In this document: piece by piece, positions 1,563 through 63,516 of the stretch | Numbering within the stretch: position 1 is the stretch's first letter | How the letters are laid out: each line of letters opens with the position of its first letter | Source: Cryobacterium sp. Y11 | Lineage (GTDB): Bacteria > Actinomycetota > Actinomycetes > Actinomycetales > Microbacteriaceae | Direction: 5' to 3' | Assembly (NCBI RefSeq): GCF_002929535.1 | Contig: NZ_PJJO01000059.1 | Span: forward strand, 62,001-126,000 | DNA: 64,000 bases | The notes under the pieces: model-generated | The model's database searches: none | Told to the model about the DNA's origin: nothing | The model's input: only the letters and a program-made list of their open reading frames with translations | Made by a program: the position numbers and the translations under genes

Positions 1563-1578
1563 GGTTTCACGTGAAACA
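1563..1578. promoter_or_regulatory. parS-like site overlapping the parA start
   Basis: GGTTTCACGTGAAACA matches 15 of 16 bases of the common parS consensus TGTTTCACGTGAAACA. The proposed parA GTG start (1571) lies inside it, so ParB bound here could repress parA-parB translation or transcription. That consequence is inference. Confidence 0.85.
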
Positions 1579-2527
1579 TCCTGCTGAAGACCAGCGAGTT
1601 GACAAGGCTGCTGGGTTTGACGCCACCACTCCGCTCGCTCGTGAAATTGCGGAACTGACGCGTCGGCGCCAGGTGATTGCGGCGGGAGACCTGCCCAAGC
1701 CCGACAAGACGCGGGTCTTGACCATTTCCAACCAGAAGGGCGGGGTCGGAAAAACGACCACTGCCGTCAACCTCGCCGCAGCACTCGCCCGCCAGGGCGC
1801 CCGGGTTTTGGTCATCGATCTCGATCCTCAGGGCAATGCGTCGACCGCCCTTGGCGTTGAACACCGCGCCGAGACACCGAGCGTGTACGACGTCATCATC
1901 AACGACATGCCCATGATCGAGGTCGTGCAGAAAAGCCCCGAATTCGGTGCACTGTTCTGCGTGCCCGCCACCATTCACCTGGCCGGCGCGGAGATTGAGC
2001 TGGTGTCACTGGTAGCCCGCGAGCAGCGGCTGCGTCGTGCACTCGATCTGTATCTCGCCGAGGTGACCGAGCGGTATGACTATGTTTTCATTGACTGCCC
2101 GCCGTCACTGGGACTGCTTACCATTAACGCCTTTGTCGCTGCCCGTGAGGTGCTCATTCCCATTCAGTGCGAGTACTACGCTCTTGAGGGGCTGAGCCAG
2201 CTGCTCAAGAACATCAAGCTCATCGAGAAGCACCTGAACCCCGACCTGGTCGTGTCGACAATTCTGTTGACCATGTACGACAGCCGCACCAATTTGGCGA
2301 CCCAGGTCGCAAAAGAAGTGCGCGATCACTTTCCCCAAGAGGTGCTCAATACGGCAATTCCGCGCTCTGTGCGCGTTTCTGAGGCCCCGAGCTATGGTCA
2401 GAGCGTCGTGAGCTATGACCTGAACTCCGCAGGATCGCTCTCGTACCTCGAAGCAGCAGCAGAAATGGCCCACCGCGGGGCGCCTGGCGCGGGAAAACAG
2501 CCCCACATAAAGGAACAGTCCAAATGA
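1571..2527 (+). CDS. parA: Chromosome-partitioning ATPase ParA (Soj)
   Basis: 318 residues. A deviant Walker A motif (QKGGVGKTTT, about 55-64), DLDPQGNAS as Walker A', and FIDCPPSLG as Walker B identify a ParA/Soj ATPase, which forms a nucleoid-bound gradient that moves ParB-parS complexes and segregates origins. The first ~45 residues form a non-conserved leader. The GTG start at 1571 is preceded by AAAGG at 1560-1564 and lies inside a parS site; starts further in cannot be excluded. parB follows 13 bases after the stop, as a two-gene operon. Confidence 0.95.
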   Translation: MKHPAEDQRVDKAAGFDATTPLAREIAELTRRRQVIAAGDLPKPDKTRVLTISNQKGGVGKTTTAVNLAAALARQGARVLVIDLDPQGNASTALGVEHRAETPSVYDVIINDMPMIEVVQKSPEFGALFCVPATIHLAGAEIELVSLVAREQRLRRALDLYLAEVTERYDYVFIDCPPSLGLLTINAFVAAREVLIPIQCEYYALEGLSQLLKNIKLIEKHLNPDLVVSTILLTMYDSRTNLATQVAKEVRDHFPQEVLNTAIPRSVRVSEAPSYGQSVVSYDLNSAGSLSYLEAAAEMAHRGAPGAGKQPHIKEQSK

Positions 2528-2540
2528 GAGAACAGCACTG

Positions 2541-3503
2541 ATGGCGAAAAGAACCGGACTCGGCCGCGGTATTGGCGCACTCATTCCGATTCACGAAGAC
2601 TCCTCGGCTCCCAGGCCGGTCGATGTGTTCTTTCCGCGTGCTGTCCCGACTGAAGCGGATGCCTCCCCCGCGTTGGTGTCCGACGTTTCGCTAACGCGTG
2701 GAGCACATCTCGCGCACCTGAACCCGCACGACATCGTGCCTAATCGTGCCCAACCTCGCACCATTTTCGACGAAGATGATCTCGCCGAGCTCGTGCACAG
2801 CATTCGTGAAGTCGGCGTGCTTCAGCCGATTGTCGTGCGCCCGCTCAGCGATGAGCCCGGCAAGTATGAACTCGTCATGGGCGAGCGTCGGCTGCGTGCG
2901 ACCAAGGAGGTCGGACTAGACAGCATCCCGGCCGTCGTTCGCGAGACCGCCGATGTCGACATGCTCCGCGATGCACTGCTCGAGAACCTGCACCGCGCGC
3001 AGCTGAACCCGCTTGAGGAGGCTTCGGCTTATCAGCAGCTTTTGGCCGATTTCGGGATCACGCAGGAAGAACTGGCGATGCGAATCGGTCGGTCTCGCCC
3101 GCAGATCACGAACACGCTGCGGCTGCTTAAGCTGCCGGAGCCGGTGCAATTGCGCGTTGCTGCCGGGGTGCTTTCGGCCGGTCACGCCCGGGCAATTCTG
3201 TCCGTTGGCGATGAGGCTGGCATGCTGCGCCTAGCCGACAAAATTGTTGAAGAAGATCTTTCTGTGCGGGCAGCGGAGGCTGCGGCAACGTTGGTTCCGA
3301 AACCGGTGAAGGCGAAGCCACTTCCTGGCCGACGCCAGGGACACCTCGACGAGATCGCCGAGCACCTCGGGGATCGGCTCGACACTCGGGTGAAGGTCAA
3401 TCTCGGGGCGAGAAAAGGCCAGATCACAGTTGATTTCGCAACCATCGGTGATCTGAACCGCATTCTCATCCTGCTCGGAGAACCGGCTTTTAGCGCGAGC
3501 TAG
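2541..3503 (+). CDS. parB: Chromosome-partitioning protein ParB (CTPase, parS-binding)
   Basis: 320 residues. The N-terminus MAKRTGLGRGIGALIP is the ParA-contacting end. The ParB/Srx CTPase domain contains MGERRLRA (around residue 113), the helix-turn-helix region contains ITQEELAMRIGRSRPQ, and a C-terminal dimerisation domain ends the protein. ParB loads on parS as a CTP-dependent clamp and spreads. Its targets are unusually abundant here: one site at the parA start and twelve immediately downstream. It is probably co-transcribed with parA. Confidence 0.96.
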   Translation: MAKRTGLGRGIGALIPIHEDSSAPRPVDVFFPRAVPTEADASPALVSDVSLTRGAHLAHLNPHDIVPNRAQPRTIFDEDDLAELVHSIREVGVLQPIVVRPLSDEPGKYELVMGERRLRATKEVGLDSIPAVVRETADVDMLRDALLENLHRAQLNPLEEASAYQQLLADFGITQEELAMRIGRSRPQITNTLRLLKLPEPVQLRVAAGVLSAGHARAILSVGDEAGMLRLADKIVEEDLSVRAAEAAATLVPKPVKAKPLPGRRQGHLDEIAEHLGDRLDTRVKVNLGARKGQITVDFATIGDLNRILILLGEPAFSAS

Positions 3504-3523
3504 ATCAGGCCGTCTTGCCCTCG

Positions 3524-3539
3524 CGTTTCATGTGAAACA
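3524..3539. promoter_or_regulatory. parS-like site (variant)
   Basis: CGTTTCATGTGAAACA matches 14 of 16 consensus bases, with CATGTG instead of CACGTG in the core. It lies 21 bases after the parB stop. Confidence 0.6.
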
Positions 3540-3590
3540 CCCCGCCCGTGGTGGAGGTGTTTTTCGTGAGTTACCTCGAGATTCTCGATC

Positions 3591-3606
3591 TGTTTCACGT
3601 GAAACC
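3591..3606. promoter_or_regulatory. parS site
   Basis: TGTTTCACGTGAAACC, 15 of 16 consensus bases. It is outside the periodic array. Confidence 0.85.
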
Positions 3607-3624
3607 TCTCCCGAGTGTCGGCCG

Positions 3625-3640
3625 TGTTTCACGTGGAACA
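3625..3640. promoter_or_regulatory. parS-like site (one mismatch)
   Basis: TGTTTCACGTGGAACA, 15 of 16 consensus bases, only 34 bases from the previous site. Confidence 0.8.
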
Positions 3641-3705
3641 TCCCCGCAACGTTCCGGAGAGCGTGCCGGTGCACACTTCCTGCAGGCACCGTGCCGCCGG
3701 TGCAC

Positions 3706-3732
3706 GGCGATCTCGGCAAGCTCGATCAGCGG
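3706..3732 (-). repeat. Inverted copy of the REP-like element found in the 130-bp units
   Basis: This 27-mer, containing TCTCGGCAAGCTCGAT, matches the reverse complement of the CTGGTCGAGCTTGCCGAGAC element of the array units at 25 of 27 positions. It is the only inverted copy seen, just before the array. Confidence 0.65.
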
Positions 3733-3833
3733 TGGTTGCGTAACCAGGCGGCTGGCTCACCCGCACGGCGATCCTAGGTCGGCTCTGTCGACCTGTCACC
3801 CTCGGGTGCCTGCGGGAGAGCGTGTAGCCTCGT

Positions 3834-3849
3834 TGTTTCACGTGAAACA
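3834..3849. promoter_or_regulatory. parS site (perfect consensus)
   Basis: TGTTTCACGTGAAACA, 16 of 16 bases. It is the only perfect copy in the block and lies 66 bases before the first array site. Confidence 0.92.
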
Positions 3850-3899
3850 ACGCGAACTGTTGCCAACGCCCAGGTTGCGCGCGGGAGCTGCTGCCACAA

Positions 3900-3915
3900 T
3901 GTTTCACGTGAAGCG
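3900..3915. promoter_or_regulatory. parS-like site, first of the 130-bp series
   Basis: TGTTTCACGTGAAGCG has two mismatches at one end and is the most degenerate periodic copy. Confidence 0.7.
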
Positions 3916-4029
3916 CAGACGACCATCGCCCTCCCCGCGGCGATCTGCGGGACAGCCCATGCCGCTGGTCGAGCTTGCCGAGACCGCCATCGCCCTCCCG
4001 CGAGCAGCGGGCAGGAGACGCTGTCCCAA

Positions 4030-4045
4030 TGTTTCACGTGAAACG
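4030..4045. promoter_or_regulatory. parS site in array
   Basis: TGTTTCACGTGAAACG, 15 of 16 consensus bases, exactly 130 bp after the previous copy. Confidence 0.9.
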
Positions 4046-4159
4046 TAGACGCCCATCGCTATCCCGACGGAGGCCTGCGGGGCTCGCCATTCCGCTGGTC
4101 GAGCTTGCTGAGACCGCCATCGCCCTCCCGCGGGCAGCGGGCGGAAGACGCTGTCCCAA

Positions 4160-4175
4160 TGTTTCACGTGAAACG
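4160..4175. promoter_or_regulatory. parS site in array
   Basis: TGTTTCACGTGAAACG, 130 bp after the previous copy; the unit that follows carries the second type of end segment. Confidence 0.9.
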
Positions 4176-4289
4176 TAGACGCCGATCGCTATCCCGACGG
4201 AGGCCTACGGGGCTCGCTATTCCGCTGGTCGAGCTTGCCGAGACCGCCATCGCCCTCCCGCTGACTATCTGCAGAACCGGCTGCCGCGA

Positions 4290-4305
4290 TGTTTCACGTG
4301 AAACG
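4290..4305. promoter_or_regulatory. parS site in array
   Basis: TGTTTCACGTGAAACG, start of the first of four identical units. Confidence 0.9.
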
Positions 4306-4419
4306 TAGACGCCCATCGCTATCCCGACGGAGGCCCACGGGGCTCACCATTCCGCTGGTCGAGCTTGCCGAGACCGCCATCGCCCTCCCGCTGACTATCT
4401 GCAGAACCGGCTGCCGCGA

Positions 4420-4435
4420 TGTTTCACGTGAAACG
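4420..4435. promoter_or_regulatory. parS site in array
   Basis: TGTTTCACGTGAAACG, start of the second identical unit. Confidence 0.9.
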
Positions 4436-4549
4436 TAGACGCCCATCGCTATCCCGACGGAGGCCCACGGGGCTCACCATTCCGCTGGTCGAGCTTGCCG
4501 AGACCGCCATCGCCCTCCCGCTGACTATCTGCAGAACCGGCTGCCGCGA

Positions 4550-4565
4550 TGTTTCACGTGAAACG
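4550..4565. promoter_or_regulatory. parS site in array
   Basis: TGTTTCACGTGAAACG, start of the third identical unit. Confidence 0.9.
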
Positions 4566-4679
4566 TAGACGCCCATCGCTATCCCGACGGAGGCCCACGG
4601 GGCTCACCATTCCGCTGGTCGAGCTTGCCGAGACCGCCATCGCCCTCCCGCTGACTATCTGCAGAACCGGCTGCCGCGA

Positions 4680-4695
4680 TGTTTCACGTGAAACG
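4680..4695. promoter_or_regulatory. parS site in array
   Basis: TGTTTCACGTGAAACG, start of the fourth identical unit. Confidence 0.9.
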
Positions 4696-4809
4696 TAGAC
4701 GCCCATCGCTATCCCGACGGAGGCCCACGGGGCTCACCATTCCGCTGGTCGAGCTTGCCGAGACCGCCATCGCCCTCCCGCTGACTATCTGCAGAACCGG
4801 CTGCCGCGA

Positions 4810-4825
4810 TGTTTCACGTGAAACG
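4810..4825. promoter_or_regulatory. parS site closing the array
   Basis: TGTTTCACGTGAAACG, followed after three bases by the stop codon of ddl; no partial unit follows it. Confidence 0.9.
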
Positions 4826-4828
4826 TGG

Positions 4829-5785
4829 CTATTGCGTGACGAGAGCGTTCGTGGCCAGAGCGGAGTAGATAGCTCCGAGGGTGTGGCTCGCGGCCTCGAT
4901 GGCCTGGGGAACCAAAGACGTTTCCGTCAGTCCGGGCAGTACATTGGCCTCGAGGAACCACGGCGTGCCTGCCGCGTCGACAATAAGGTCGACGCGGCTG
5001 ATGTGACGCAGCCCGAGTAGCCCGTGAATAGCCACGGCCGTCGCGGCGACGGTCGACGAGATGTCTTCGGAGAGGCGAGCAGGGGTATAAAAGTTCGTCT
5101 CCCCGGCGTTGTAGCGTGCTTCGAAGCTGTACACACCGTCAACAGGGACGATTTCTACGATCGGCAGGGCCATCGGGCCGTCCCCGGTGTCGAGTACGGC
5201 CACGGTCACCTCGGTGCCATCGATGTGCGCCTCCACCAGGGCGGTGTCGGCGTAGGTGTAGGCGTCCACCATCGCGCGCGGCAGATCGGCAGGGGTGCGC
5301 ACGATCGTGACGCCTTGCGATGACCCACCCTGGGCTGGCTTGACCACGAGAGGCAGCCCGATTGCGCTAATTAGGTGTTCGAGCACACTCGTGGCGCCGA
5401 GATCGCGAAACGTCTCGGTCGAGAGTGCGATCGCTGGGGGAGTGGCGAAGCCGGCGCGCAGTACGAGTTCCTTCGCGGTGGGCTTATTCCACGCCAGTGC
5501 GGCCGCCGGTCCGCGTGACCCGAGGAACGGAATACCCGTGGTGGCCAGCAGTGAGAGCAGTGCTCCGTCTTCGCCGGTGGCGCCGTGCAGGGTAGGCCAG
5601 ATGAGATCGGGCGCCGTATCGCGCAGGGTGGTGAGCAGGTTCGCGCCGGGGTCGAGTACGGTGACCTTGTGACCGGCGTCGGTGAGGGCATCCGCTACCC
5701 GTCGGCCGGAGCGTAGTGACACATCACGTTCGTGGGAGATGCCGCCGGCCAGCACAATGATGTTAAGTGCGGTGAATTCGCTCAT
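4829..5785 (-). CDS. ddl: D-alanine--D-alanine ligase
   Basis: 318 residues, an ATP-grasp enzyme making the D-Ala-D-Ala dipeptide for peptidoglycan. Seen: an N-terminal strand with VLAGGISHERDVSLRSG (substrate-binding start), LPLVVKPAQGGSSQGV (ATP-grasp lysine and glycine-rich loop), and a C-terminal SRVDLIVDAAGTPWFLEANVLPGLT (metal-binding Asp/Glu/Asn and the omega-region). Slightly shorter than many Ddl proteins but complete. Its 3' end abuts the parS array; its start is about 43 bases after the upstream aminotransferase gene on the same strand, so the two may form an operon. Confidence 0.93.
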   Translation of the reverse strand: MSEFTALNIIVLAGGISHERDVSLRSGRRVADALTDAGHKVTVLDPGANLLTTLRDTAPDLIWPTLHGATGEDGALLSLLATTGIPFLGSRGPAAALAWNKPTAKELVLRAGFATPPAIALSTETFRDLGATSVLEHLISAIGLPLVVKPAQGGSSQGVTIVRTPADLPRAMVDAYTYADTALVEAHIDGTEVTVAVLDTGDGPMALPIVEIVPVDGVYSFEARYNAGETNFYTPARLSEDISSTVAATAVAIHGLLGLRHISRVDLIVDAAGTPWFLEANVLPGLTETSLVPQAIEAASHTLGAIYSALATNALVTQ

Positions 5786-55836: not shown

Positions 55837-56883
55837 ATGCACAAGAGATATTTCGCCATTCCCGCACTCTTCGCGTCCGCAGCCCTTGCCCTCTCCGGGT
55901 GCTCGGCCGGCACAACCGCCAGCGCCGACAGCGGGGCAGACGACCTCAAGGTCGTCGCCACAATGACCCAGGTCGCCGATTTCACCCGCAACGTGATCGG
56001 TGACGCGAGCAATGTCACGCTCACGCAGCTGATCCAGCCCAACCAAAGCGCCCACAGCTACGACCCCTCGGCGTCCGATCTCACCACGCTCGGTGCGGCT
56101 GATGTGCTCGTGATCAACGGTGTCGGCCTCGAAGAATGGCTCGATGACGCCATCGCGGCGTCCGGCTTCGACGGTGTCACGATCGATGGGGATACTGGCA
56201 TCACCATCGCCGAGATTGGGGCCGGCGAGGAGCACGCCGAAGACGAGCATGCCGAAGACGAGCATGCCGAAGACGAGCACGCCGAAGAAGAGGATGCCCA
56301 CGCTCACGAAGGTGGCGACCCGCACATCTGGACCGACGTGCACAACGCCGAGACCATCGTGCAGACGATCACCGACGGCCTGGCGAACGCCGACAGCGAC
56401 AACGCTGCCACCTTCGAAGCCAATGCTGCCGCGTACACGGCGCAGCTGACTGCGCTCGATGAGTGGATTCGCACCAATGTCGACACCGTGCCAGAGAGCG
56501 AACGTTTGCTCGTGAGCAACCATGATGCCCTCGGCTACTTCACCGCCGCCTACCACATCGACTATGTCGGCTCAGTCATTCCAAGCTTTGACGATAACGC
56601 GGAGCCGAGCGCTGCCGAAATTGACTCCCTCGTTGCCGCGATCACGGCCGTCGGTGTCAAAGCCGTCTTCTCCGAGGCATCGATCAGCGCCAAAACCGCC
56701 GAGACGATCGCTACCGAAGCTGGTGTCACGGTTTATTCCGGTGACGATGCCCTCTACGTTGACTCGCTCGGCCCTGCTGAAAGCGACGGCGACACCTACA
56801 TCAAGGCACAGCTGCACAACACGACGCTCATGCTCGAATCGTGGGGCGTCACCCCGTCTACCCTGCCCGCCAACCTGCAATAG
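55837..56883 (+). CDS. znuA: Zinc ABC importer substrate-binding lipoprotein
   Basis: 348 residues. The lipobox is ALSGCSAG (Cys about 24). Metal-binding fold: NQSAHSYDPSASDLTTL, IWTDVHNAETIV, AYHIDYVG. A His/acidic loop (about residues 130-158) has AEDEH three times in a row, then AEEEDAHAHE, a metal-buffering segment usual in ZnuA but here built from a 15-bp tandem repeat (56236-56280). It heads the znuACBB-zur operon under the Zur box. Confidence 0.92.
   Translation: MHKRYFAIPALFASAALALSGCSAGTTASADSGADDLKVVATMTQVADFTRNVIGDASNVTLTQLIQPNQSAHSYDPSASDLTTLGAADVLVINGVGLEEWLDDAIAASGFDGVTIDGDTGITIAEIGAGEEHAEDEHAEDEHAEDEHAEEEDAHAHEGGDPHIWTDVHNAETIVQTITDGLANADSDNAATFEANAAAYTAQLTALDEWIRTNVDTVPESERLLVSNHDALGYFTAAYHIDYVGSVIPSFDDNAEPSAAEIDSLVAAITAVGVKAVFSEASISAKTAETIATEAGVTVYSGDDALYVDSLGPAESDGDTYIKAQLHNTTLMLESWGVTPSTLPANLQ
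56236..56280 (+). repeat. Three 15-bp tandem repeats in znuA
   Basis: GCCGAAGACGAGCAY occurs three times in a row (56236, 56251, 56266), with a fourth divergent copy after it; each codes Ala-Glu-Asp-Glu-His. Confidence 0.9.
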
Positions 56884-57688: not shown

Positions 57689-58588
57689 GTGGATGCCTTG
57701 ATCACCGCGTTCGAGCTGCCATTCATGGCCAGGGCGCTGCTCATACTCGTCGTGCTGAGCCTGGTCGCCGGGCTAGTGGGCGTGCTGGTAAACCTGCGCG
57801 GCCTCGAGTTCATCAGCGACGGACTCACCCACGCTGTCTTTCCCGGTATCGTGATCGGATTCGTTTGGGGCGGCCGAGACGGCCTGTTCGTAGGCGCGAT
57901 GGTGGCTGCCCTTGCCGCCGCCGTGGTTCTGACCGTGATCGTCAGACGCGCCGTCACTTCGGACGCTGCGATCGCCATCGTGTTTACGGCGATGTTCAGC
58001 GTGGGAATCATCGTGGTTTCACGGGAAACAAACTTTGTCGGCCAGTTGGACTCCCTGCTCTTCGGGCGGCTGCTCACCGTCAGTGACGTCGAGGTCGATC
58101 AGGCCGTAGTGGTGTGCCTGATTGCGCTGGCTATCGTGGGTTTCACGATTAAGGAGCAGGTGTTTCGAGCCTTCGATCTTGAGGGGGCCCGGGCTGCCGG
58201 GTACCGGCCACTGGTACTGGACATTCTGCTCAACGTCGCCATCGCACTGGTGGTGGTGGCCGCGAGTAATGCGGTCGGTAACCTGCTGGTGCTCGCTGTG
58301 CTGATCGTGCCGGGCGCTGTAGCCCGACTGGTCACGAATCGTCTGTGGCTGCTCTTTCCGGTGGCCGCCGGCTTTGCGATTCTCGCCGCCTGGGTGGGAC
58401 TCGCGCTCGGCTATGCAGCCTCGGTGAATGGCGGCGTCGACCTGCCGAGCGGGGCAACCGTCGTGCTCCTGCTCGTCGCTGGCTACGTGCTGGCCTTGGG
58501 TGCTCGGCTCGGAATCGACCGGCTCGGTGTTGGCCGGATAGGCGGCCCGCGTCGGTCGAGACTTCGCGCTGAGCAGGGGGCACTCTGA
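57689..58588 (+). CDS. znuB: Zinc ABC importer permease (ZnuB family), first copy
   Basis: 299 residues with eight to nine hydrophobic segments of the metal ABC-3 family: [21 protein letters not shown], and [22 protein letters not shown] with [23 protein letters not shown] at 57689 follows the ATPase stop with no gap. The last base is shared with the next start. Two ZnuB-type permeases in a row suggest a heterodimeric channel. A degenerate parS-like sequence lies inside at 58015-58030. Confidence 0.87.
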
Positions 58589-61524: not shown

Positions 61525-63516
61525 GTGCCCCGTCTCGTTCGCGTTCTTGGACCGGCAGCTCTGCTGCTGGTCGCTGTGCTGTCCATCCTTGTTGCCCTGG
61601 CCTATGGCGGCGGTGCTTCGGCGCAGTTGCTCGCCGACCCGGGGCCGGTTGTGCGGTGGGGGCTCCCGATCGCCAAGCTCGTGGTCAACATTGCGGCGGC
61701 GGGCACCATCGGCGCCCTCGTGCTCACTTTGTTCGCGCTCAGCCCCCAGGAACGCGAGTTCAACACTGCCTTGGACTTCGCCGCGGCATCGGCGGCACTG
61801 TTCGCCGTCGCATCCGCTGTTACTGGTTTTCTGACCTTTCTGCAGGTCACCAATGTGCCATTCGGCGTCAGCGACCAGTTCAGTGCCACACTCGGCCAGT
61901 TCTTCAGTCAGATCGAAATCGGGCAGGCCTGGCTTGCGACGACGCTGATCGCCGCCGGTGTCACCGTGCTGTGCTTCGCCGTGCGCAACCACACTGCGCT
62001 GATCTTCGTCACGGTGCTGGCCCTGTCCGCGCTGCTTCCGATGGCCCAGCAGGGCCACTCGGCCGGCGCATCTGGGCATAACGCCGCGATCACGGCGCTT
62101 GGCCTGCACCTGGTCTTCGCGGCCATCTGGCTGGGCGGCCTGCTGACCATCATCGTGCTCCGCACCCACCTCGACGGCGAACGCATCCGTCGGGTGATTG
62201 GTCGCTATTCTTCACTTGCGCTGGTTTCGTTCATCGTCGTGGCCGCCTCCGGCTATGTCAGCGCCGAACTGCGCATCGGTAGCTGGGACAACCTAGTCAG
62301 TCCCTACGGCCTCCTCGTGCTGGTCAAGGTCACAGCCCTCGTCGCCCTCGGCGGTTTCGGCATTCTGCAGCGCCAATTCTTCATCAAGCGGATGCAGCGG
62401 AGCGGGCCGGCGCGCGGCCGCTGGTTCTGGTGGCTCGTCGTGACCGAGCTCGGCTTCATGGGTCTGGCCTCTGGGGTGGCCGCAGCGCTCGCCCGCACGG
62501 CGACCCCCATCGTTCAGGTGGTCACGACCGAGATTCCGCAATCCACGCCCGCGCAGATTCTCACCGGCGAACTGCTGCCGCCCGAGCTGACCTTCTCGCG
62601 CTACTTCACCGAGTGGAACTTTGACCTCGCCTGGATTTTGTTTTGCGCCTTCGGCATCTTCTTCTACCTGGCCGGTGTCTGGCGGCTGCACCGTCGCGGC
62701 GACGCCTGGCCGATCTACCGGAGCGTGCTGTGGATCTTCGGCATGATCACCCTGTTCTACATCACCAACGGTGGCGTGAGCGTGTACGAGCAGTACCTGT
62801 TCTCCACCCATATGCTCGTGCACATGGTGCTGACCATGCTGGTGCCCCTGATGCTCGTGCCGGGCGCCCCGGTAACGCTGGCCGCCCGTGCCATTGCCAA
62901 GCGTCAAGACGGCAGCCGCGGAGCGCGCGAGTGGATCCTCACCGCGGTGCACTCGCGCTTCGCTGGCATCGTCGCCAACCCCATCGTTGCCGCCATATTG
63001 TTCGGTGTGTCACTGTGGATTTTCTACTACACCTCCATCTTCAGCTGGGCGACGACCGACCACATTGGCCATCAGTGGATGATCGTTCACTTTCTACTTA
63101 CCGGCTATCTGTTCGTACAGTCCCTGATCGGCATCGACCCGGTGCCGTTCCGGCTGCCGTACGCATTCCGCCTGCTGCTGCTGCTGGTGACGATGGCGTT
63201 CCACGCGTTCTTTGGCCTCGCCTTGATGAGCGGTACCGGGCTTCTGCTGGCCGACTGGTACGGCGCGATGGGCCGCACCTGGGGCCTCTCTCCCCTCGCC
63301 GACCAGCAGATGGGCGGCGGCGTCGCTTGGGGAATCGGCGAGCTGCCCACCTTCGTGCTGGCCGTCGTCGTGGCGGTGCAATGGAGCCGTGACGACACCA
63401 AGGTGACGAAGAGGCTCGATCGCAAGGCCGACCGCAATGAGGATGCCGAGCTGATCGCGTACAACGCGAACCTGGCCAGGATCACCCAGCACGACGCCGA
63501 GAGCCCGCGAGGCTAA
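61525..63516 (+). CDS. Fusion of CopD copper-resistance domain and CtaG cytochrome oxidase assembly domain
   Basis: 663 residues with many hydrophobic segments. The N-terminal half is CopD-like (LIFVTVLALSALLPMAQQGHSAG; LVFAAIWLGGLLTIIVLRTH); the C-terminal half is the CtaG caa3 oxidase assembly family (HMLVHMVLTMLVPLMLVPGAP, HFLLTGYLFVQSLIGIDPV, MAFHAFFGLALMSG) with conserved His residues in membrane helices. It probably moves copper for oxidase assembly. The GTG at 61525 starts the first hydrophobic segment. It converges with the last gene, overlapping it by four bases. Confidence 0.85.
   Translation: MPRLVRVLGPAALLLVAVLSILVALAYGGGASAQLLADPGPVVRWGLPIAKLVVNIAAAGTIGALVLTLFALSPQEREFNTALDFAAASAALFAVASAVTGFLTFLQVTNVPFGVSDQFSATLGQFFSQIEIGQAWLATTLIAAGVTVLCFAVRNHTALIFVTVLALSALLPMAQQGHSAGASGHNAAITALGLHLVFAAIWLGGLLTIIVLRTHLDGERIRRVIGRYSSLALVSFIVVAASGYVSAELRIGSWDNLVSPYGLLVLVKVTALVALGGFGILQRQFFIKRMQRSGPARGRWFWWLVVTELGFMGLASGVAAALARTATPIVQVVTTEIPQSTPAQILTGELLPPELTFSRYFTEWNFDLAWILFCAFGIFFYLAGVWRLHRRGDAWPIYRSVLWIFGMITLFYITNGGVSVYEQYLFSTHMLVHMVLTMLVPLMLVPGAPVTLAARAIAKRQDGSRGAREWILTAVHSRFAGIVANPIVAAILFGVSLWIFYYTSIFSWATTDHIGHQWMIVHFLLTGYLFVQSLIGIDPVPFRLPYAFRLLLLLVTMAFHAFFGLALMSGTGLLLADWYGAMGRTWGLSPLADQQMGGGVAWGIGELPTFVLAVVVAVQWSRDDTKVTKRLDRKADRNEDAELIAYNANLARITQHDAESPRG

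Follow-up and report, generated by a model that had tools for sequence, protein, structure and literature searches.

The 64,000-nucleotide stretch of Cryobacterium sp. Y11 that was analysed (positions 62,001 to 126,000 of contig NZ_PJJO01000059.1; hereafter the window) carries a row of eight parS sites at a step of exactly 130 bp beside parA and parB. In all likelihood, this row is an amplified part of a parS island found across the genus, the extra copies would serve as additional loading sites for ParB, and the fixed period is a by-product of tandem duplication.

The parS sites and their surroundings

The window was scanned with the pattern TGTTTCACGTGAAACA, which we take to be the parS consensus of chromosomal ParABS systems. 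Allowing up to three mismatches, 14 sites matched, compared with 0.12 expected from shuffled sequences. They start at positions 1563, 3524, 3591, 3625, 3834, 3900, 4030, 4160, 4290, 4420, 4550, 4680, 4810 and 58015, and the eight starts from 3900 to 4810 are each exactly 130 bp apart. Tandem Repeats Finder reported a repeat at 3890-4826 with period 130, 7.2 copies, 94% matches and 0% indels. Hence, the row of eight is real and regular, as the first-pass annotation had claimed. The array (3890..4826, plus strand) consists of eight parS of 16 bp separated by seven spacers of 114 bp between the 16-mers. Seven of the eight parS have perfect cores; the core of the first, GTTTCACGTGAAGC, has one mismatch to the 14-mer.

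The gene order in the window is rsmG, parA, parB and then a convergent ddl. On the plus strand, parA (1571..2527; Pfam AAA_31, 1.2e-61) is followed by a parB of the chromosomal type (2541..3503; ParB_N, 4.2e-33; HTH_ParB, 7.4e-34), whose ParB_C match (1.5e-4) lies under the curated Pfam cut-off. The best solved relative of this ParB is chain 6t1f_A, which is named ParB (4e-48). A parS with one mismatch to the 16-mer overlaps the putative start codon of parA (1563..1578, plus strand). Between parB and the array, the pattern matched four further plus-strand sites: one with two mismatches about 22 nt past the parB stop (3524..3539), one at 3591..3606, a GTGGAAC variant at 3625..3640, and a perfect 16-mer at 3834..3849. 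On the other side, the island is bounded by ddl, encoding D-Ala-D-Ala ligase (4829..5785, minus strand; Dala_Dala_lig_C, 1.5e-41). Open reading frames run through parts of the array; since 130 cannot be divided by 3, however, their frame changes with each unit, and a coding role was set aside.

The 1.3 kb between the stop codons of parB (3503) and ddl (4829) thus hold twelve parS, in addition to the one at the parA start. Genome-wide (4,028,303 bases in 61 contigs), the 16-mer with up to two mismatches was found 15 times, and 13 of these places lie within the 3.26 kb from 1563 to 4825, in agreement with the thirteen sites in about 3.3 kb noted initially. Counting parS elsewhere in the genome added only two. 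One is located where recF and dciA meet, 6.4 kb upstream of the window, and the other is the degenerate parS-like site at 58015..58030 (plus strand), which has two mismatches to the 16-mer, one of them in the central part. The window also contains a short 15-bp tandem repeat at 56230-56292 (4.2 copies, unit GAGCACGCCGAAGAC).

Chromosomal setting of the locus

Leftward of the window, Pfam matches identified yidC, dnaA, dnaN, a RecF/SMC-type gene, dciA and gyrB, a neighbourhood typical of a chromosomal origin. The array is about 6 kb from dnaA, and dnaA, dnaN and gyrB all lie within about 14 kb. Consensus parS sites, the cognate parA and parB alongside and origin genes nearby are all features of a chromosomal ParABS system. 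Judged from its sequence, the locus is therefore the origin-proximal ParABS centromere of the Cryobacterium chromosome and not that of a plasmid. The first-pass annotation had regarded it as more like a plasmid centromere. Its parS sites, their position beside parAB and, by sequence, its reading as a centromere stand, but the likeness to plasmids and the meaning given to the period do not.

We found no array-like sequence among 72,556 plasmid and 50,697 phage records, and viral contigs contained no exact parS triple at the 130-bp array spacing, although records very near the window's genome were possibly left out of both searches. With these results and the chromosomal flanks, a plasmid or phage origin was rejected. 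A centromere of the sopC type was rejected as well: the array does consist of direct repeats that hold a palindromic ParB site, which is a likeness of layout only, but with its chromosomal flanks and no match among plasmid records, the locus does not fit a low-copy plasmid with a plasmid-type ParAB.

One plasmid system resembles the array in layout. Its ParB belongs to another class than that of the window. There too, direct repeats follow each other in tandem and carry ParB sites that are 16-bp inverted repeats, but the available text describes a different ParB site and a step of 43 bp (PMC6238139).

The parS island in the genus and family

We compared 57 Cryobacterium genomes, and took the parB neighbourhoods of 55 relatives and of the window's genome. 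The parB-ddl gap was readable in 55 of the 57 genomes, the two absent ones being G033 (without a ParB match) and G048 (where the contig ends before ddl). Perfect 14-mer parS cores were present in 56 of the 57 genomes, with 3 to 10 each and the highest number in the window's genome, and ParB matched at E values up to 1e-60 in 56 of 57. G033 (800 contigs) had neither a perfect parS core nor a ParB match, and in G008 the ParB match was split in two pieces; assembly faults or misplacement are possible causes of both oddities.

All 55 readable gaps contained parS, with 2 to 12 sites each. Together they held 265 sites with up to two mismatches, of which 247 were perfect 14-mers. Two genomes had 2 sites, 8 had 3, 21 had 4, 9 had 5, 6 had 6, 5 had 7, 2 had 8 and one had 9; the window's genome alone had 12, compared with 3-6 in 44 of the 55 genomes. 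A site at the parA start was found in 54 of 55. The initial statement that most chromosomes scatter a few parS sites hence does not describe this genus, where sites adjoin parB in every readable genome (55/55). Beyond the genus this arrangement is less general. Among 29 other family genomes (the best-scoring of 60 searched, without G000, with flanks of 1.5 kb), 17 had parS within 1.5 kb after parB and two had three or more.

The first gap site begins within 45 nt after the parB stop in 40 of the 55 genomes, and in 44 of them the last one starts no more than 100 nt from the end of ddl. In the window, the core of the last array parS begins 21 nt before the ddl coding end, and most relatives have a site there too. 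These shared positions suggest that the outer sites are ancestral and that the array is an internal expansion. A lone 130-bp spacing was seen three times in the relatives, but other genomes of the genus never have more than two successive spacings that agree within 2 bp, whereas the window has seven. The unit itself was detected in only one of the 57 genomes (E up to 1e-12). In the family sample, seven of 398 genomes contained three perfect parS at steps of 115-145 bp; the window's genome had five such overlapping triples and the next genome three. At least one homologous spacer pair (alignment z >6) was present in 17 of the 54 other islands, for example in G050, G011, G022, G001 and G012, and these pairs may in part reflect the dispersed repeat described below.

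Divergence of the units

Array units 4 to 7 are identical. Relative to these, unit 3 differs at 4 of 130 positions, unit 2 at 18 and unit 1 at 32, so that divergence increases toward parB and the homologous units form a gradient of age. Units 1 and 3 differ from each other at 33 of 130 bases, without any indel. Four identical units next to three ever more diverged ones are best explained by recent tandem duplication, and the period is fixed because the spacers are homologous and partly identical. The same homology takes the place of the meaning that the first-pass annotation had attached to the period, in terms of wrapping, sequential loading and the face of the helix.

The array has eight parS but only seven homologous spacers, with a parS at both ends. 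Beyond the eighth parS follows the unrelated 3' end of ddl, with its stop codon at 4829-4831. We propose that in this species one segment of 130 bp, comprising a parS and its spacer, was duplicated in tandem, most probably through unequal exchange between adjacent parS copies or slippage from one to another during replication. Such a route would be expected to leave parS at both ends of the row, with eight parS flanking seven homologous spacers.

The perfect period-130 tract spans 4219..4825 (plus strand; 607 bp). Short reads cannot size such a tandem tract, and in a draft of 61 contigs the count of identical units may be off. That this count is an artefact of assembly seems improbable to us, however, as assemblers collapse tandem copies more often than they expand them. 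Moreover, units 1, 2 and 3 are distinct, and together with one copy of the type of units 4-7 they do not hinge on how often the identical unit is repeated. A minimum of four units and five parS therefore stands in any case.

A dispersed repeat within the unit

Two parts of the unit are kept in its diverged copies, namely parS (at most 1 of 16 positions differs) and positions 63-102 (0-1 of 40). In contrast, 14-17 of the 46 positions in 17-62 and 3-15 of the 28 in 103-130 distinguish unit 1 from the other units. The 40-bp kept block is located at 3962-4001 of the window and at the equivalent places in the other units, and its conservation points to a possible second binding site. It holds a repeat of about 29 bp with the 21-bp core CTGGTCGAGCTTGCCGAGACC, which occurs once per unit in seven copies (3965..4765, plus strand), starting at 3965, 4095 (with one mismatch), 4225, 4355, 4485, 4615 and 4745. 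An inverted copy of the repeat precedes the array at 3706..3732 (minus strand).

With up to two mismatches, the core was found at 38 places in the genome, compared with one for the reversed control. Eight of these places are in the parS island and 30 outside it, some of them as short local clusters. Eighteen of the 20 stretches taken from these 30 places yielded 26 dispersed copies. Their likeness to the unit starts near position 63 and fades past about 91, and over its parS part their identity is about that expected by chance. Folding of 35 nt around the core into a hairpin was no better than in shuffled sequences (z 0.21), and the Y1 transposase RAYT (PF01797) had no match in the genome, while it was matched in 5 of 14 control genomes. 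A REP/RAYT element was rejected on these two grounds, and we therefore call the sequence a dispersed repeat rather than a REP. The repeat also occurs in parB-ddl gaps of relatives without a parS in the unit. In G012 (stretch L219), 16 inverted copies (up to four mismatches) follow each other in steps of 40-41 bp at about 1240-1870 nt past the parB stop.

The spread of the repeat over 30 places outside the island, its local clusters and its parS-free rows in relatives such as G012 raise the alternative that the dispersed repeat expanded selfishly or neutrally into the array and carried parS along without an effect on segregation. We consider this unlikely. The 26 dispersed copies lack parS, no RAYT was found in the genome, and with perfect cores in seven of the eight array parS, loading of ParB would be expected. 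A second kept block is not expected from simple neutral duplication and thus counts against the duplication reading preferred here, although conversion from the dispersed repeat could produce one. The block may have been kept either through self-conversion of the repeat family or through binding of something.

Regular parS rows in other genomes

One genome per species was scanned for three perfect parS at steps of 115-145 bp, a setting that also catches multiples of shorter steps. The scan yielded at least 116 stretches, several of which share one genome, from many phyla according to the record titles. Among the stretches listed, 19 had four or more successive spacings that each matched the adjacent one to within 2% or 1 bp, 48 had at least one homologous pair of adjacent spacers, and 50 had a ParB-like match. 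Examples include 11 parS at 125-126 bp in a metagenome-assembled genome (MAG) of Bacilli (L060), six parS at 123-124 bp adjoining parAB in a Lachnospiraceae MAG (L084), and 14 parS at 43 bp in a Gammaproteobacteria MAG (L140). In an Oscillospiraceae MAG (CANRFA010000043.1), stretch L141 and its neighbour L049 together held 60 parS cores with up to one mismatch, 56 of them at steps of 110-137 bp. This array is far bigger than that of the window and has a parA-like match nearby. The Chthonomonadaceae MAG SKYG99 had parS rows on six of its contigs (L048, L081, L086, L087, L113 and L158), with steps of about 58 bp.

Within the Microbacteriaceae, an uncultured Microbacterium (L083, NZ_CANKZA010000002.1) carries a parS row at L083:1302-3617. 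Like the row in the window, it adjoins parAB and has homologous parS-bearing spacers, here of 112-138 bp; unlike it, it lies upstream of parA, its step is not constant and its spacers are unrelated. Homology of the window unit with the L083 spacers was rejected as not above chance (score 23, compared with a shuffled maximum of 26). The L083 spacer motif (up to two mismatches) had 10 of its 12 places within C2:297413-298942 and two elsewhere. As this motif is mostly confined to its own array, the idea that an array grew on a dispersed genomic repeat applies to the window's genome only. In L070 (JACEFY010000004.1), named Stenotrophomonas maltophilia P13, parA and parB were about 67% identical to those of the window; this assembly is probably contaminated.

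Fixed-step rows of chromosomal-type parS, some of them with parAB nearby, thus seem to arise repeatedly. Fixed-period natural chromosomal parS arrays were not described in the titles and abstract openings of the literature covered, a scope that leaves out most subscription papers, and within the same scope nothing related to parS in Cryobacterium was found.

Spacing, helical phase and ParB loading

Several of these rows could suggest that the 130-bp step itself was selected, with ParB clamps or bridges packing best at this distance and the array forming a specialised ordered platform. The ten gaps of 125-126 bp in L060, the five of 123-124 bp in L084 and several of 112-138 bp in L083 are of similar size, 130-bp spacings occur singly in relatives, and seven units have remained free of indels even where they differ at 33 of 130 positions. 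However, the scan was set to 115-145 bp, so that similar steps were found partly by selection, other arrays have steps of 41-45, 57-63 or 70 bp, and relatives do not exceed two successive equal spacings.

Helical phasing does not favour a selected step either. The 475 spacings of the 116 stretches listed, with each distinct spacing counted once per stretch, were not phased at 10.5 bp (R 0.043, p about 0.41). The 116 spacings within the genus showed a weak phase (R 0.185, p about 0.02, uncorrected for relatedness and for the seven periods tried), against which 130 bp falls at 0.38 of a turn. The step does not amount to a whole number of turns (130 / 10.5 = 12.38). Helical phasing was therefore rejected, being unsupported outside the genus and weak within it.

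In established ParB biology, each parS loads CTP-bound ParB clamps, which then slide away. We solved the steady state of a sliding-clamp model for the observed and for altered layouts of the sites. The koff, the sliding constant (5600 bp2/s) and the number of dimers (360) were the values given for Caulobacter crescentus in the available parts of PMC10387095. The overall loading rate of C. crescentus was shared over five sites. The lattice of 20 bp was our own choice, as were two additional sliding constants that were faster. In this model, the observed 14 sites would load 1.25-1.27 times as many ParB dimers as a layout with the array reduced to a single unit; counted within -3 to +4.5 kb, the factor would be 1.34-1.37. 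For eight sites in 910 bp, the model would load nearly the same number of dimers in regular as in random positions (76.8 v 73.8; 111.1 v 109.9; 125.8 v 125.1). Since the model is nearly indifferent to regularity, it also speaks against a step selected for packing, and we regard such selection as very unlikely. The equal length of the units, despite differences at up to 33 of 130 positions and without an indel, nevertheless leaves room for some selection on length.

The model further predicts that eight sites spaced 1 kb apart would load 131-145 dimers, compared with 77-126 at 130 bp, because neighbouring sites in a tight row block one another. As closer packing costs loading, a tight row would not be the best route to more ParB in total. 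According to the model, the extra copies should help modestly, mainly through local density, and their regularity should not matter.

Discussion

The reading that we prefer is amplification of a genus-wide island by tandem duplication, and known ParB biology suggests what the additional sites would do. Each parS would promote closing of a ParB clamp, which would then slide into the adjacent DNA. The eight-parS row would accordingly offer additional loading sites for ParB-CTP clamps in a ParB-rich region that ParA would move and to which SMC would be recruited. The extra copies would thereby bring a modest gain in loading and robustness, and no new function.

Robustness has been proposed for a related case. 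In Corynebacterium glutamicum, a single one of the ten parS is enough, yet the ParB clusters are bigger when all of them are present, and the surplus sites were interpreted by the authors as robustness (available parts of PMC7083940), which fits a similar role for the array copies. That chromosome resembles the window in having an actinobacterial ParABS system with a 16-bp parS consensus, with nine of the ten sites intergenic. Its ten sites, however, extend over 35 kb at 73 kb from oriC (PMC7083940), whereas the window has 13 sites in 3.3 kb, eight of them at a fixed period, about 6 kb from dnaA. Myxococcus xanthus likewise has a big local chromosomal cluster, with 24 parS adjoining parAB, but the available text of PMC3778016 describes no fixed-period tandem unit. 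Neighbouring chromosomal parS near parAB, termed tandem parS, are already in print for C. crescentus (PMC4368675), where two sites are 42 bp apart (PMC10387095). As far as the available text of these two papers goes, they are two close sites among five bound, and not an eightfold homologous row.

A broader idea, which we put forward only tentatively and hold to be doubtful, is that bacterial centromeres can become satellite-like, with a parS unit that was amplified next to parAB and homogenised there, each time independently, in several phyla, and a second kept block that may bind a partner protein. If true, there would be fixed-step arrays whose copy number varies among lineages, akin to the centromeric satellites of eukaryotes.

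With twelve island parS, against the few that are usual in the genus, the window's genome offers a natural experiment in centromere size. It suggests that parS clusters grow by tandem duplication within a gap bounded by parB and ddl and, together with the other arrays, that regular rows of parS have arisen more than once. This genome would allow one to ask directly whether more ParB loading sites at one spot alter chromosome segregation or the loading of SMC.
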